Part shown: piece by piece, positions 1,141-48,437 of the stretch
How positions within the stretch are numbered: position 1 is the first letter of the stretch
How the letters are laid out: the number at the start of each line of letters is the position of its first letter
Assembly: GCF_000759855.1 (NCBI RefSeq)
Contig: NZ_JNAI01000003.1
Coordinates: 62,001-126,000 of the forward strand
Source: Prochlorococcus marinus str. MIT 9107
Lineage (GTDB): Bacteria > Cyanobacteriota > Cyanobacteriia > PCC-6307 > Cyanobiaceae
Reading direction: 5' to 3'
Length of the DNA: 64,000 nucleotides
Position numbers and translations under genes: made by a program
Notes under the pieces: model-generated
What the model was told of the DNA's origin: nothing
Databases searched by the model: none
Seen by the model: the letters and a program-made list of their open reading frames with translations, nothing else

Positions 1141-1545
1141 TTAGGAATTTTTAATTTCTAAGGAGTCAACTTTTTTTAAAAGTTCATCTTTTAATTGCTT
1201 TGGATTAAATAATATTGGTAATAAATGGGGACTGGACTTTTCTCTAAAATAAAAAATACCCGGGATTACAGGAAAAAAGAATTTCCAAGATATCCAGTTC
1301 TTGAATGGGAAAGTTCTAATCTCTTTTCCTAGTTGTAAAACGACAAAATCATCACTTGTTATTTTTATTCTTAGGGTAAATGATTGCAGTAATAAAAAAA
1401 AGCTAAAAGATGCAGAAACTATTGTTGGCAAAGAACCAATATTCAAGAATAAAAGCATAAAACTTAAAACTATCAGAATAATTGGTAATTGAAATGATGG
1501 TGATATTATTACTGGCTCTTCTTTTTTTGATTTAGTGTTAATCAT
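1141..1545 (-). CDS. DUF3119 family membrane protein
   Basis: The protein has 134 residues counted from the ATG at 1545 (MINTKSKKEEP). The open frame also has an upstream TTG at 1557, inside the permease stop region; I prefer the ATG because it leaves a clean 4-nt gap after the permease. Two hydrophobic helices near residues 15-60 are followed by a soluble part containing DDFVVLQLGKEIRTFPFKNW and FFPVIPGIFYFREKSSPHLL, features I recognise as the cyanobacterial and plastid DUF3119 family. The family has no established biochemical role. Its place directly after a MlaE/TGD1-like permease suggests, by context only, a part in lipid transport or envelope homeostasis. Confidence 0.75.
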   Translation of the reverse strand: MINTKSKKEEPVIISPSFQLPIILIVLSFMLLFLNIGSLPTIVSASFSFFLLLQSFTLRIKITSDDFVVLQLGKEIRTFPFKNWISWKFFFPVIPGIFYFREKSSPHLLPILFNPKQLKDELLKKVDSLEIKNS

Positions 1546-1549
1546 AGAA

Positions 1550-2305
1550 TCATCCAAATAAAATTTGTGTTAGTAATACATCCATTAAAGATACAGTAAC
1601 GAGAGTCATTACAACTGCCCCTGTAGTACTTGTTCCAACTTCTTTTGGACCACCTTTAGTTGTAAGTCCATATCCACAAGAAATAATTGAAATAAGTAAT
1701 CCGAACACTACAGATTTTATTAACATTGAGTTTAAATCTGTATTTGTCAAACTTACATTACCTGATCTTACAGATGTCCAAAAAACTATTGGAGGAACGT
1801 TATAAAAAATTGTGCTCCAAATTTGTCCACTCCACAAAGCTACAGATAAAAACAAAAGACACTGTATCGGAGACATTATTACCATCGATAGTAACCTCGG
1901 GACTACCAAATATTGGACTGGTTCCGTTCTTAACATTGTTATAGCCTCAATTTGTTCTGTAACTTTCATAGTGCCTAGTTGAGCAGCATAAGCGGTAGCA
2001 ACCTTCCCTGTCATTAAGGTAGCAGTTAGAAGGGGAGCCATTTCTCTTGCCATTCCTACTGCTAATAAACCTCCTATTTCACTTGAGACACCCATACTTG
2101 TAAGTTGTGATGCAACTTGAATATTAAAGACTGTACCTGCAGCAATTCCTGTAATTAAAACTATTAATAAACTTCCAGGTCCCGACTCCATTAGTTGCTC
2201 ATAGAGATCATTTTTAGAAATCTTACCTCTAAAGATAAAATTAATTGCTTGCCCGCCAATGATTAAGCTGCTTAGAAGTCTTATAAAAAACTTAGGGTAA
2301 TTCAT
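1550..2305 (-). CDS. MlaE/TGD1-type ABC transporter permease (Ycf63 family)
   Basis: This 251-residue integral membrane protein has five to six hydrophobic segments. It carries the family core GGLLAVGMAREMAPLLTATL (about 78-97) and a coupling-loop stretch ending GTMKVTEQIEAI (111-122). MlaE/TGD1 proteins are permeases of lipid ABC importers that move phospholipid between membranes; the partner ATPase and the MCE substrate-binding protein are not in this window. It begins 9 nt after the sugar-symporter-like gene and is followed closely by DUF3119, DUF3086 and plsY, all on minus. The family assignment is firm; the transported lipid is inferred from relatives. Confidence 0.88.
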   Translation of the reverse strand: MNYPKFFIRLLSSLIIGGQAINFIFRGKISKNDLYEQLMESGPGSLLIVLITGIAAGTVFNIQVASQLTSMGVSSEIGGLLAVGMAREMAPLLTATLMTGKVATAYAAQLGTMKVTEQIEAITMLRTEPVQYLVVPRLLSMVIMSPIQCLLFLSVALWSGQIWSTIFYNVPPIVFWTSVRSGNVSLTNTDLNSMLIKSVVFGLLISIISCGYGLTTKGGPKEVGTSTTGAVVMTLVTVSLMDVLLTQILFG

Positions 2306-2314
2306 ATCTCTAGA

Positions 2315-3688
2315 TTAGTTTGTAATTAATTCTTGATCCCATTTTCTCATAATTAATAGGCCCCAATAGACAAGAATTGAAGGTATTAATCCCATACAAA
2401 TTCTTACAGTTATTAATGCGGAATCTGGTTGAGTGATGTCTAAAATTCCTTGACAGGCTGCTTGTTTGAAACCAGTAAGAGTTAGTAGATATCCAAATAA
2501 TCCTACGCTTAAAGCTATACCAAGTTTTTGACATAAAACCATCCAAGCGGTGTAGATCCCTGCTGCTTTGTCTGGATCATGATCAATAGCATCTGGCAAT
2601 AAAGACCAAGGTATTAAATATGCTGTTGATGCTCCAAATCCAACAAATAATATTGTTAGAAACAAAATTAACATTTTTATAGAATCTATATTGAAATTAT
2701 TCATTTCAAAATTATTTGACAATGAAGGTAATATCATTGCGATCAAGCAACCACCAATCCATATAAATCCTCCTATTTTTAGTGCTTTAATTCTTCCATA
2801 TCTATTGGAATAAAAACTCCAAACCTGCAATCCTAAAAGAGCACTGATTTGAAAAGGAATGATGATCCAAAAAGATATCCCTCTTGGTAAATTCATCACT
2901 TGTTGCAAATATATTAATGAAACTGTTTGCATTAACTGCAATCCGCACCAAAGCAGTAAATAGAGATAGATTACTTTTATAAAAATTTTATTATTGAAAA
3001 TGCGCTTGAATTGATTTTTTATTGGTTGTATTTTATTAATGGGTTTTCTCGCATTTTTTGCAAATGGAGCTAAACCCCAAGTTGAAAGTAGAGTGATTAG
3101 TGCAACAATAGTACCAGATGTTCTTCCCATTGTTAGGTACCCAATATCCCCTTTCGTTAAGAATATTGCTCCTACAGTTAATCCCGATAAAGAAGCTAAT
3201 ATTGAACCAGTAAATCTCGCGGCGTTAAGTCTAGTTCTAATATTTTCGTCTTCACTAATTTCTGTTGCTAATGCTCCATAAGGAAGATTTACAGATGTAT
3301 AAGCTGTCATGTACAAAATTGATGTACATATGTAGTAAAAAGTTTTTTCTTTTATGCTGTAATCATTGGGAATCCACCACATTGCAGCTAAAAAAATTCC
3401 TAATGGAAGTGATGCCCCAATCATCCAAGGTAGTCTTGGACCCCATCTTGATTGAGTATGGTCACTCATCCAACCAATCAAAGGATCATTAATTGCGTCC
3501 CAGAGCTTAATTGTCATCAAGATAGAACTTGCTACCCATGGGGGTAAACCTGCCGCACAAGTAAAGAAAGGGAAGAGGTAAAAACCAAATTGAGCATTAG
3601 CAAGTCCTGTCCCAGCATCACCAAGCCCATAGGAAAGCATTAATCTAGTTCTTGATCCAGTTATATTTTTTGAGTGTGAATTTTCCAA
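2315..3688 (-). CDS. GPH-family (MelB-like) major facilitator transporter
   Basis: The protein has 457 residues and about twelve membrane helices. The diagnostic motif is in the TM2-TM3 region: WDAINDPLIGWMSD at 63-76, followed by RWGPRLPWM at 81-89. In MelB-type glycoside-pentoside-hexuronide cation symporters the acidic residues of this motif bind cation and sugar. A sugar substrate is plausible but cannot be read from the sequence. The gene is the first of the minus-strand run leading into the lipid-type permease. Upstream, separated by an opposite-strand tRNA-Gly, lies the debranching enzyme gene, so both may belong to carbohydrate metabolism. No truncation is seen. Confidence 0.8.
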   Translation of the reverse strand: MENSHSKNITGSRTRLMLSYGLGDAGTGLANAQFGFYLFPFFTCAAGLPPWVASSILMTIKLWDAINDPLIGWMSDHTQSRWGPRLPWMIGASLPLGIFLAAMWWIPNDYSIKEKTFYYICTSILYMTAYTSVNLPYGALATEISEDENIRTRLNAARFTGSILASLSGLTVGAIFLTKGDIGYLTMGRTSGTIVALITLLSTWGLAPFAKNARKPINKIQPIKNQFKRIFNNKIFIKVIYLYLLLWCGLQLMQTVSLIYLQQVMNLPRGISFWIIIPFQISALLGLQVWSFYSNRYGRIKALKIGGFIWIGGCLIAMILPSLSNNFEMNNFNIDSIKMLILFLTILFVGFGASTAYLIPWSLLPDAIDHDPDKAAGIYTAWMVLCQKLGIALSVGLFGYLLTLTGFKQAACQGILDITQPDSALITVRICMGLIPSILVYWGLLIMRKWDQELITN

Positions 3689-46305: not shown

Positions 46306-47220
46306 TTGACTAATTATAGATCTGGGTTTGTAACTTTACTAGGAAGGCCAAATGTGGGGAAATCTACTTTAATAAATAAATTGATTGGAGAAAAAATAAC
46401 AATTACTTCTCCAATAGCGCAAACTACTAGAAATAAATTAAAAGGAATACTTACTACAAAAAATGGGCAAATAATTTTTGTAGATACACCAGGTGTTCAT
46501 AAACCTCATCATCGCCTTGGAGAGATATTAGTAAAAAATGCAAAATCTGCAATTAATGGAGTTGATATGGTGATTTTTGTAATTGATTCAAGTGAAGAAC
46601 CTGGTAGAGGGGATGAATATATATTGAACTTTTTAATCGCAAATAAAACTGAGTTTATTGTTGCGTTAAATAAGTGGGATTTGGTTAATAAAGAATTTAG
46701 GAATTTGCGATTAGATCAATATAGAAGATTTTTTGGAATTAATAGAAATTTTCAAATTGTAAGTGCTTTTCAAGGAGAAGGATGTTCTGAACTAGTTGAT
46801 AAGGCACTTAATTTCCTTCCAGAGGGACCAAAACTTTATGACGAAGATACGATATGCGACCAACCATTAGATAATTTGTTATCTGATTTAGTAAGAGAGC
46901 AGGTATTAATAAATACAAGAGAAGAAGTACCTCATAGTGTTGCAGTAAAGATAGAAAAGATAGAGGAAATGAAAAGAAAAAATGGCAAAAATTTTACAGC
47001 TATTTTGGCTACTATTATTGTTGAAAGATCAACTCAAAAAGGCATTCTTATTGGAAAGAAAGGTTCAATGTTAAAAATTATTGGTCAGTCAGCAAGATTA
47101 AATATTTCAAAATTGATTGATGGCCCAGTTCACCTGGAGTTGTTTGTGAAAGTTGTTCCAAATTGGAGAAAAAAAGAATCAAGGTTAATTGAGTTTGGTT
47201 ATGAGGAAGATTTCAGATGA
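46306..47220 (+). CDS. era: GTPase Era
   Basis: A 304-residue GTPase for 16S rRNA maturation and 30S assembly. G1 is GRPNVGKS (13-20), G3 [14 protein letters not shown] and G4 NKWD. A C-terminal KH domain (about 215-300) contains [19 protein letters not shown]. The start codon is TTG at 46306, giving [11 protein letters not shown]. It overlaps trmD-ispF by 4 nt (ATGA) and is the first gene of a run of four ATGA-coupled cistrons. Confidence 0.96.
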
Positions 47221-48437
47221 GTAGTTTTAATTTTGATGTAATTACATTGTTCCCTAAAGCTTTTGAATTAATAAATAATTTAGGTGTTATAACAAGAGCT
47301 CTAGATAAGAATTTGATCGATGTAAATTTATATGATTTAAGAGAATATGGAGAAGGTTCTTACAGACAAGTAGACGATAAGCCTTATGGAGGAGGCGCAG
47401 GGATGGTATTAAAACCAGATCCTATTTATAAGGCATATGAATCAATTAGAAAATCACCTAAAAGTAAAACTTTGTTGATGACCCCACAGGGTAAAGTCTT
47501 AAAGCAAAATGATCTTACTAGATGGTCCACTTTGGATCAAATAATAATTATTTGTGGTCAATATGAAGGTTTTGATGAAAGGATTAGATGTTTAGCTGAT
47601 GAAGAGATATCGATAGGTGATTATGTACTTTCTGGAGGTGAAATACCTGCTATGTCAATAATTAACGGTTTGACAAGATTATTACCAGGAACACTTGGAG
47701 ATTCAAACTCTTTAGTGGATGAGAGTCATAATTCTTCTTTATTAGAATATCCTCAGTACACGAGGCCATTAACTTTTAGAGATATGAAAGTGCCAGATAT
47801 TTTAGTGAGCGGTAATCATGAAGAGATTAAATCGTGGAGAAGACGAAAAAGTATTGAAAGAACATTTGAGAGAAGAATTGACATAATTTCAAATGAAAAC
47901 TACAAAAAATCCCCACAAAGTAAGAGAATAATAAAAGAATATAATCAATTCATGAAATTTAGAATAGGTAATGGATACGATATTCATAGATTAGTAGAAG
48001 ATAGAGAATTGATTATTGGAGGTGTAAAATTGCACCATCCTGAAAATTTAGGATTGGATGGTCATAGTGATGCTGATGTTTTAAGTCACTCAATAATGGA
48101 TGCATTGTTGGGAGCACTTTCGCTGGGCGACATAGGAAAGTATTTCCCCCCATCTGATGAAAAATGGAAAAATGCTGATAGCTTGTTTTTGTTATCAAAA
48201 GTAATTGACTTGATAAGACAAGATGGTTGGGAAATAAATAATATTGATAGTGTTCTCGTCGCTGAAAGGCCAAAAATCATGCCACATATAAAACTAATGA
48301 AAAAAAACATTTCTGAAATATTAAATATTGATGAAAATTTAATTGGGATTAAAGCAACTACGAATGAAAAATTGGGTCCAGAAGGGAGAGAAGAGGGTAT
48401 AAGTTGCCATTCAGTAGTGCTAATTGAGAAAAAATGA
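47217..48437 (+). CDS. trmD-ispF: Fused TrmD (tRNA m1G37 methyltransferase) and IspF (MECDP synthase)
   Basis: One uninterrupted 406-codon frame encodes two complete enzymes. Residues 1-244 are TrmD, which methylates G37 of tRNAs: PYGGGAGMV (57-65), [11 protein letters not shown] (113-123) and the knot segment [14 protein letters not shown] (133-146). Residues 246-406 are IspF, which makes 2C-methyl-D-erythritol 2,4-cyclodiphosphate in the MEP isoprenoid pathway: metal ligands D255 and H257 in GYDIHRL, and H291 in DADVLSH. Both parts have the normal length of the separate enzymes. The junction is a CAA at 47946-47948, one transition from TAA, just before the ATG (47952) that would start IspF. 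Internal start at 47952 may still produce separate IspF. It is ATGA-coupled at both ends. Confidence 0.93.

Follow-up and report, generated by a model that had tools for sequence, protein, structure and literature searches.

What is a tRNA methyltransferase doing in one reading frame with an enzyme of isoprenoid synthesis, and is the joint between them an accident of one strain or a feature with a history of its own? The question arises from a window of 64,000 nucleotides (the whole stretch of DNA analysed) from Prochlorococcus marinus str. MIT 9107 (contig NZ_JNAI01000003.1, positions 62,001 to 126,000), in which a preliminary description had reported trmD and ispF within one open frame at 47217-48437. 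This proved correct: the frame runs through 406 aa with no stop, both families score above their cut-offs, and the landmarks named at the joint, a CAA codon (Gln244) at 47946-47948 and an ATG at 47952, are both in place. The features of the gene, in window coordinates, are as follows.

47217..48437, + strand: fused trmD-ispF gene, a single stop-free open reading frame of 406 aa
47217..47891, + strand: TrmD domain (m1G37 tRNA methyltransferase), residues 1-225, above the PF01746 and NF000648 cut-offs
47892..47951, + strand: inter-domain linker, residues ~226-245, including the CAA at 47946-47948; length and sequence differ among genera
47952..47954, + strand: internal start codon, conserved across fused junctions; probable second start, for free IspF
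47952..48434, + strand: IspF domain, residues 246-406, above the PF02542 and TIGR00151 cut-offs
47967..47973, + strand: GGTAATG, putative 7-bp crossover core of the empty attB, placed by the change-over of insert ends
47952..47990, + strand: putative attB region, its pre-core part found in left ends of inserts and its post-core part in right ends

The frame is a complete TrmD fused in-frame to a complete IspF. In the window's protein Pfam places tRNA_m1G_MT at residues 27-220 (E 2e-60) and YgbB/IspF at residues 248-404 (E 2e-63). Among the NCBIfam models, the TrmD equivalog cut-offs are passed for NF000648 (287 bits vs 220) and TIGR00088 (274 vs 195), as is that of TIGR00151 for IspF (206 bits vs 116, model positions 1-155 of 155). 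The IspDF model NF006899 is among the hits but is not reached (208 bits vs 417, with the match confined to residues 240-403), and the NCBIfam hits include no TrmD-IspF model. Many residues of the TrmD half are invariant in an alignment of 22 fused proteins, and the MIT 9107 genome (1.70 Mb, rated 100% complete) holds a single trmD-ispF match and no second copy. The long frame probably encodes a bifunctional TrmD-IspF protein. Its domains had been described as joined directly; a linker of ~20 residues (~226-245) in fact lies between them. The overlaps at both ends of the gene are of the ATGA type (era/trmD at 47217-47220, ispF/next ORF at 48434-48437), so that the fused gene is part of a tightly packed gene run.

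The union of a dimeric TrmD with a trimeric IspF, presented earlier as a structural puzzle, has a precedent in the IspD/IspF fusions (PDB 1w55, 8xhu), solved structures in which IspF is likewise the C-terminal half of a bifunctional protein; here, however, the partner is TrmD, a tRNA methyltransferase outside IspF's pathway. Such ispDF fusions are described in PMC5821942, where the title of a cited reference mentions a hexameric assembly. An AlphaFold model of the TrmD-IspF fusion built from 22 sequences had a mean pLDDT of 58, too poor to use.

How old is the fusion? Of the 266 genomes of the window's genus (g1), 221 gave a match and 45 did not, and 143 of the 221 have a single frame across the joint. 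When the remaining 78 were searched again, two more proved fused (G025 and G065, the match in the latter beginning only at residue 122), 58 had trmD and ispF apart on one contig, and 18 were left undecided, since they gave a match to just one of the genes or had the two on separate contigs. The fused gene of G025 (locus L282) has a stop or frame break in its trmD part. Neither trmD nor ispF was matched in G018, G109, G130 and G153, g1 genomes rated 91-99% complete, through either an assembly gap or loss. A search of the family, which we take to be Cyanobiaceae, with Prochlorococcus and Synechococcus, matched 264 of 271 genomes at least 90% complete. Counted over the matches listed, 52 of the 181 matching genomes from other genera have a stop-free fused frame, the fused members belonging to 11 genera (g2, g3, g8, g13, g14, g19, g20, g21, g22, g24 and g29), and in 19 of the 181 both genes fall within one match with a stop inside. 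Outside the family, 245 of 246 genomes of the class matched; among the matches listed there was no stop-free frame spanning the joint, although a fusion with a long linker could show up as two matches, and in at least 8 genomes the match spans the joint with one or more stops.

The preliminary description had taken the fusion to be recent, through loss of a TAA stop at 47946, and CAA is indeed one transition from TAA and is followed by the internal ATG. Comparison of the junction with relatives speaks against this. The frame is common to most matching genomes of the genus, and it runs uninterrupted through both domains in 81 of 81 loci, comprising the window's own and 80 from another genome collection (the best 80 of 405 relatives, two of them opposite ends of one contig). 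Among 146 genus loci, which come from two overlapping collections and do not represent distinct genomes, the codon equivalent to 47946-47948 is CAA in 131, another sense codon in the rest and a stop in none. Fused frames also occur in other genera, at 53-60% identity to the window's. A fusion arising within this strain is thus practically out of the question, as is a base-calling error at that position; sequencing error at the joint is ruled out by the same open frame in the relatives. The fusion is old within the window's family, as judged from these comparisons.

What happens where the two genes lie apart? In all 58 split g1 loci the order and strand of trmD and ispF are unchanged, with a gap of 673-9389 bp (median 1911) between them. 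The TrmD tails fall into 26 of the type YPDW/YPNW, 12 that are WFWDM-like and 20 that are neither. Many YPDW-type and some WFWDM-type tails retain the fused joint and IspF codons and then diverge. The same ending is found after the local joint in g22 (G366, G373) and g24 (G384), and it is also present in g16 (G328). On the other side of the insert, ispF begins at a new ATG, which lies 5 codons ahead of the conserved part in 49 of the 58 loci.

The ends of the inserts are hybrids, and their switch points lie close together. Host sequence in the 26 YPDW-type left ends, registered by counting back from YPDW and including several that are decayed or have no host remnant, matches on average to +12, and the host G at +13 is present in none. 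In the right ends, 51 of 58 of which encode arginine by CGN where 129 of 144 fused loci use AGA, the last non-host position is +5 and the sequence is host-like from +6. These points bracket the 7 bp GGTAATG, the candidate crossover core, and seven bases is the usual change-over length for tyrosine recombinases. We compared 75 inserted loci, 58 from the genus and 17 from other genera, of which 19 have a core recognisable on both sides. When the flanks of these 19 testable loci were joined at the core, 18 gave an open frame of 406-408 aa and one (G385) failed; an integrative element is expected to have the site duplicated at its two ends and an exact empty site in relatives, and this pattern was found in 18 of the 19. 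The core copies are identical in 10 of the 19 and differ mostly at third codon positions in the others, differences that we read as later change. Two further candidate signals were rejected: an arm-site motif, RTTACA, occurs at both ends in only a minority of the 58 inserts, its left copy being the 5' coding end of the recombinase gene described below, and a TATRAT-like box that might have marked a promoter is present in only 11 of 54 right ends.

Fused and inserted states interleave on a tree of the flank proteins, whose 79 tips require at least 21 changes (FastTree, four linked genes, a topology that recombination may blur; L314 and L320, 2 of the 81 loci, were left off since their flank genes are missing). 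In the closest pair compared, G029 (fused) and G164 (insert), the flanks are 97.4% and 94.6% identical. Such interleaving would also be expected if the separate, insert-bearing arrangement were ancestral and the fused genes were products of repeated insert deletions, and g23, g31 and g32, together with some other cyanobacteria, do have the two genes as separate neighbours with a stop between. The remnants of the fused joint in the split TrmD tails of g1, g22 and g24 run counter to that polarity, as do the non-host codons at the right ends and the fused members in 11 other genera, and we consider it very improbable.

Recombinase genes provide a candidate agent for the insertions. Two of the 58 inserts contain an open recombinase gene, of 524 codons in G009 (L163) and 505 codons in G128 (L145); a TAG in G128 sits just ahead of the recombinase start, outside the gene. 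Both proteins match a PHROG integrase (E 2e-13 and 1e-20), and R329, K366, R448, H449 and Y481, the catalytic R, K, R, H and Y of a tyrosine recombinase, are invariant among 11 recombinases (these two and nine relatives). Their scores against the Pfam integrase family PF00589 are below the curated cut-off, and a PDB sequence search with the recombinase gave no match at E 0.01. A recombinase N-terminus lies near the trmD stop in 13 of the 75 left ends at E<1e-3, vs 0 of 1500 shuffles; these 13 are the intact L145 gene (a self-match), a fragment ahead of the intact gene in L163 and fragments in eleven other inserts, and the other 62 left ends have no recombinase match at that threshold. In G256 the N-terminal match extends over 157 residues and contains two TAA codons. 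The L163 insert of G009 has a fragment and a tandem junction in addition to its intact recombinase, and that of G175 (L157) contains two recombinase fragments; the island may grow by tandem integration.

Directly 5' of the intact L163 recombinase gene is MTRKSPQLRIGNEYDIYPDW*, a sequence in which one element's right end seems to run straight into the left end of another. This junction looks like the form expected for an attP, and similar tandem joints are present in L143 and in G273, which belongs to another genus. The L163 recombinase found no match in the window's genome, and no viral contigs were found with either the recombinase query or the attP-like pattern.

Could the locus simply be hypervariable, swapped by homologous recombination within trmD and ispF, with the recombinases as passengers? 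Most inserts have no recombinase, and TrmD identity between split alleles and the window's ranges from 68 to 94%, both of which would fit such exchange. It would hardly account for a change-over confined to 7 bp, for recombinase fragments at a fixed place, for the tandem attP-like junction or for the same tail across genera, and as the sole explanation it is improbable. Homologous exchange may, however, spread inserts after they have integrated and, since an open recombinase is present in only 2 of 58 inserts, may be the main route of present-day spread.

The hybrid ends, the 7-bp switch, the recombinase genes and fragments and the attP-like junction together indicate that the window shows an empty attachment site. 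We consider it very probable that the window is the empty form of an old fusion in which the 5' end of ispF serves as the attachment site of tyrosine-recombinase elements, and that free IspF is probably also made. Integrative elements would target the 5' end of the IspF part, with strand exchange within GGTAATG. At its left end an element would terminate TrmD by a short stop-ended tail (..NEYDxYPDW* or ..WFWDM*), and at its right end it would provide ispF with an ATG of its own together with, in most cases, five new codons. With both replacement ends coming from the element, the two enzymes would remain intact, and presumably functional as separate parts, but as two genes with cargo between them; excision would restore the fusion. 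Most integrated copies appear to have lost the recombinase and to persist as cargo islands. The 20 TrmD tails with neither type of element end count against this explanation, as do the 62 left ends with no recombinase match, the recognisable core in just 19 of the 75 loci and its identical copies in only 10 of these 19.

If free IspF is also made, its start should be retained within the fused frame, and the suspected use of the internal ATG is borne out to that extent. A start codon stands exactly 3 codons upstream of the IspF RIGN motif in every fused junction of the genus (ATG in 73 of 73 distinct g1 junctions) and in 45 of 49 distinct junctions from other genera (ATG 30, GTG 13, TTG 2). The 4 exceptions, all from g29, have an ATG two codons further downstream. 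L286 and L378, also fused, were missed by the junction motif and lie outside these counts. In the seven genes with Val or Leu at the start position, GTG accounts for 4-32% of the Val codons and TTG for 13-30% of the Leu codons, which makes chance a poor explanation of the conservation; many of the rows are close relatives, and amino-acid preference and common descent could contribute. In two g14 genomes, G303 and G314, GGAGG is found directly 5' of the internal start. Since the start codon has been kept within the fused frame, free IspF is probably made from it alongside the fusion.

That raises the question of whether the long product has any role of its own, or whether most IspF is translated from the internal start, the long product being in effect a TrmD with an IspF extension that does no harm. 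The conserved start, the GGAGG in G303 and G314, the poor conservation of the linker among genera and the frequency of splitting all favour this reading. Set against it is the lack of any stop before IspF in 145 genus loci, where ~3.5 would be expected given the 69 variants observed in the linker (P ~0.03), a deficit that hints that the long product matters. At the amino-acid level the linker appears unconstrained in this count, nonsynonymous changes making up 51 of the 69 single-step variants. Since the frame lacks a stop after the TrmD part, every full translation from the trmD start yields the long product. We hold a fusion protein with no role of its own to be unlikely, while giving the idea real weight, and it can be combined with attachment of elements at the joint.

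The inserts each contain at least one ORF of at least 60 aa, and 136 ORFs were kept in all. A Pfam scan of 40 of the 136 identified 2 recombinases and 28 members of other families and left 10 with no match; an NCBIfam search with eight insert proteins gave no match. Most of the 28 are glycosyltransferases, FkbM/TylF-like and other methyltransferases, and formyl-, sulfo-, acyl-, amino- and carbamoyltransferases, together with a flippase, a UDP-sugar dehydrogenase, a polysaccharide deacetylase and a polysaccharide-export protein, and a few less specific types (aldo/keto reductase, AMP-binding, beta-lactamase fold). Judged by the families recognised, the cargo appears to be mostly of the cell-surface-sugar type, and it may have a role in surface change and escape from phage. 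A cluster of polysaccharide-export proteins, one member of which was Pfam-scanned, is found in 14 of the 58 inserts. In these (L169 and 13 others) the export gene is often the first after trmD, and the TrmD tail is WLWDL-like in 7 of the 14.

Prochlorococcus is among the most abundant phototrophs, and some integrative elements whose attB lies inside a protein gene are known to supply a replacement gene end. The inserts described here do likewise but, unlike such elements, would restore two gene ends at once and turn one bifunctional gene into two. The closest likeness within the same organisms is to the tycheposons, which also combine a tyrosine recombinase with cargo-bearing islands. Tycheposons are given as 4-200 kb in length, with one of 7 tRNA genes at the border (PMC10872708), whereas the inserts here, of 0.7-9.4 kb, lie at the joint of a protein gene, between trmD and ispF, and their ends are hybrids of the ispF start. 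The insert recombinases are 25-49% identical to other large recombinases of the window's family, and six loci of related recombinases, with short flanks, have no tRNA within ~1.5 kb. Our search found no earlier report of the fusion or of the insertion site in literature from which most subscription papers were out of reach. Given this, and the larger size and tRNA siting of tycheposons, we regard the joint of a bifunctional gene, where these elements would attach, as a site of a new kind for integrative elements.

An unusual fusion of two essential genes is in this way tied to an attachment site in a protein gene and to a hotspot for surface-sugar genes, with a predicted attB/attP pair, and the naturally fused and split pairs of essential enzymes offer material for studying what the fusion is used for. 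A more tentative thought, possible but to be doubted somewhat more than believed, is that elements specialised on the joint split one fused enzyme into two separately controlled ones and re-fuse them on exit, so that the form of TrmD-IspF would report, and perhaps respond to, occupancy of the island, a slot for surface genes that may decide phage sensitivity.

Relatives of the insert recombinases are also found away from the joint. In L333 (G362, g21), a recombinase gene at 1438-3072, whose product is 47-49% identical to that of L163, adjoins an ABC-transporter ATPase-like ORF. The trmD-ispF gene of G362 is fused although this related recombinase is present elsewhere in the genome, and an element related to that of L163 may use another site there.
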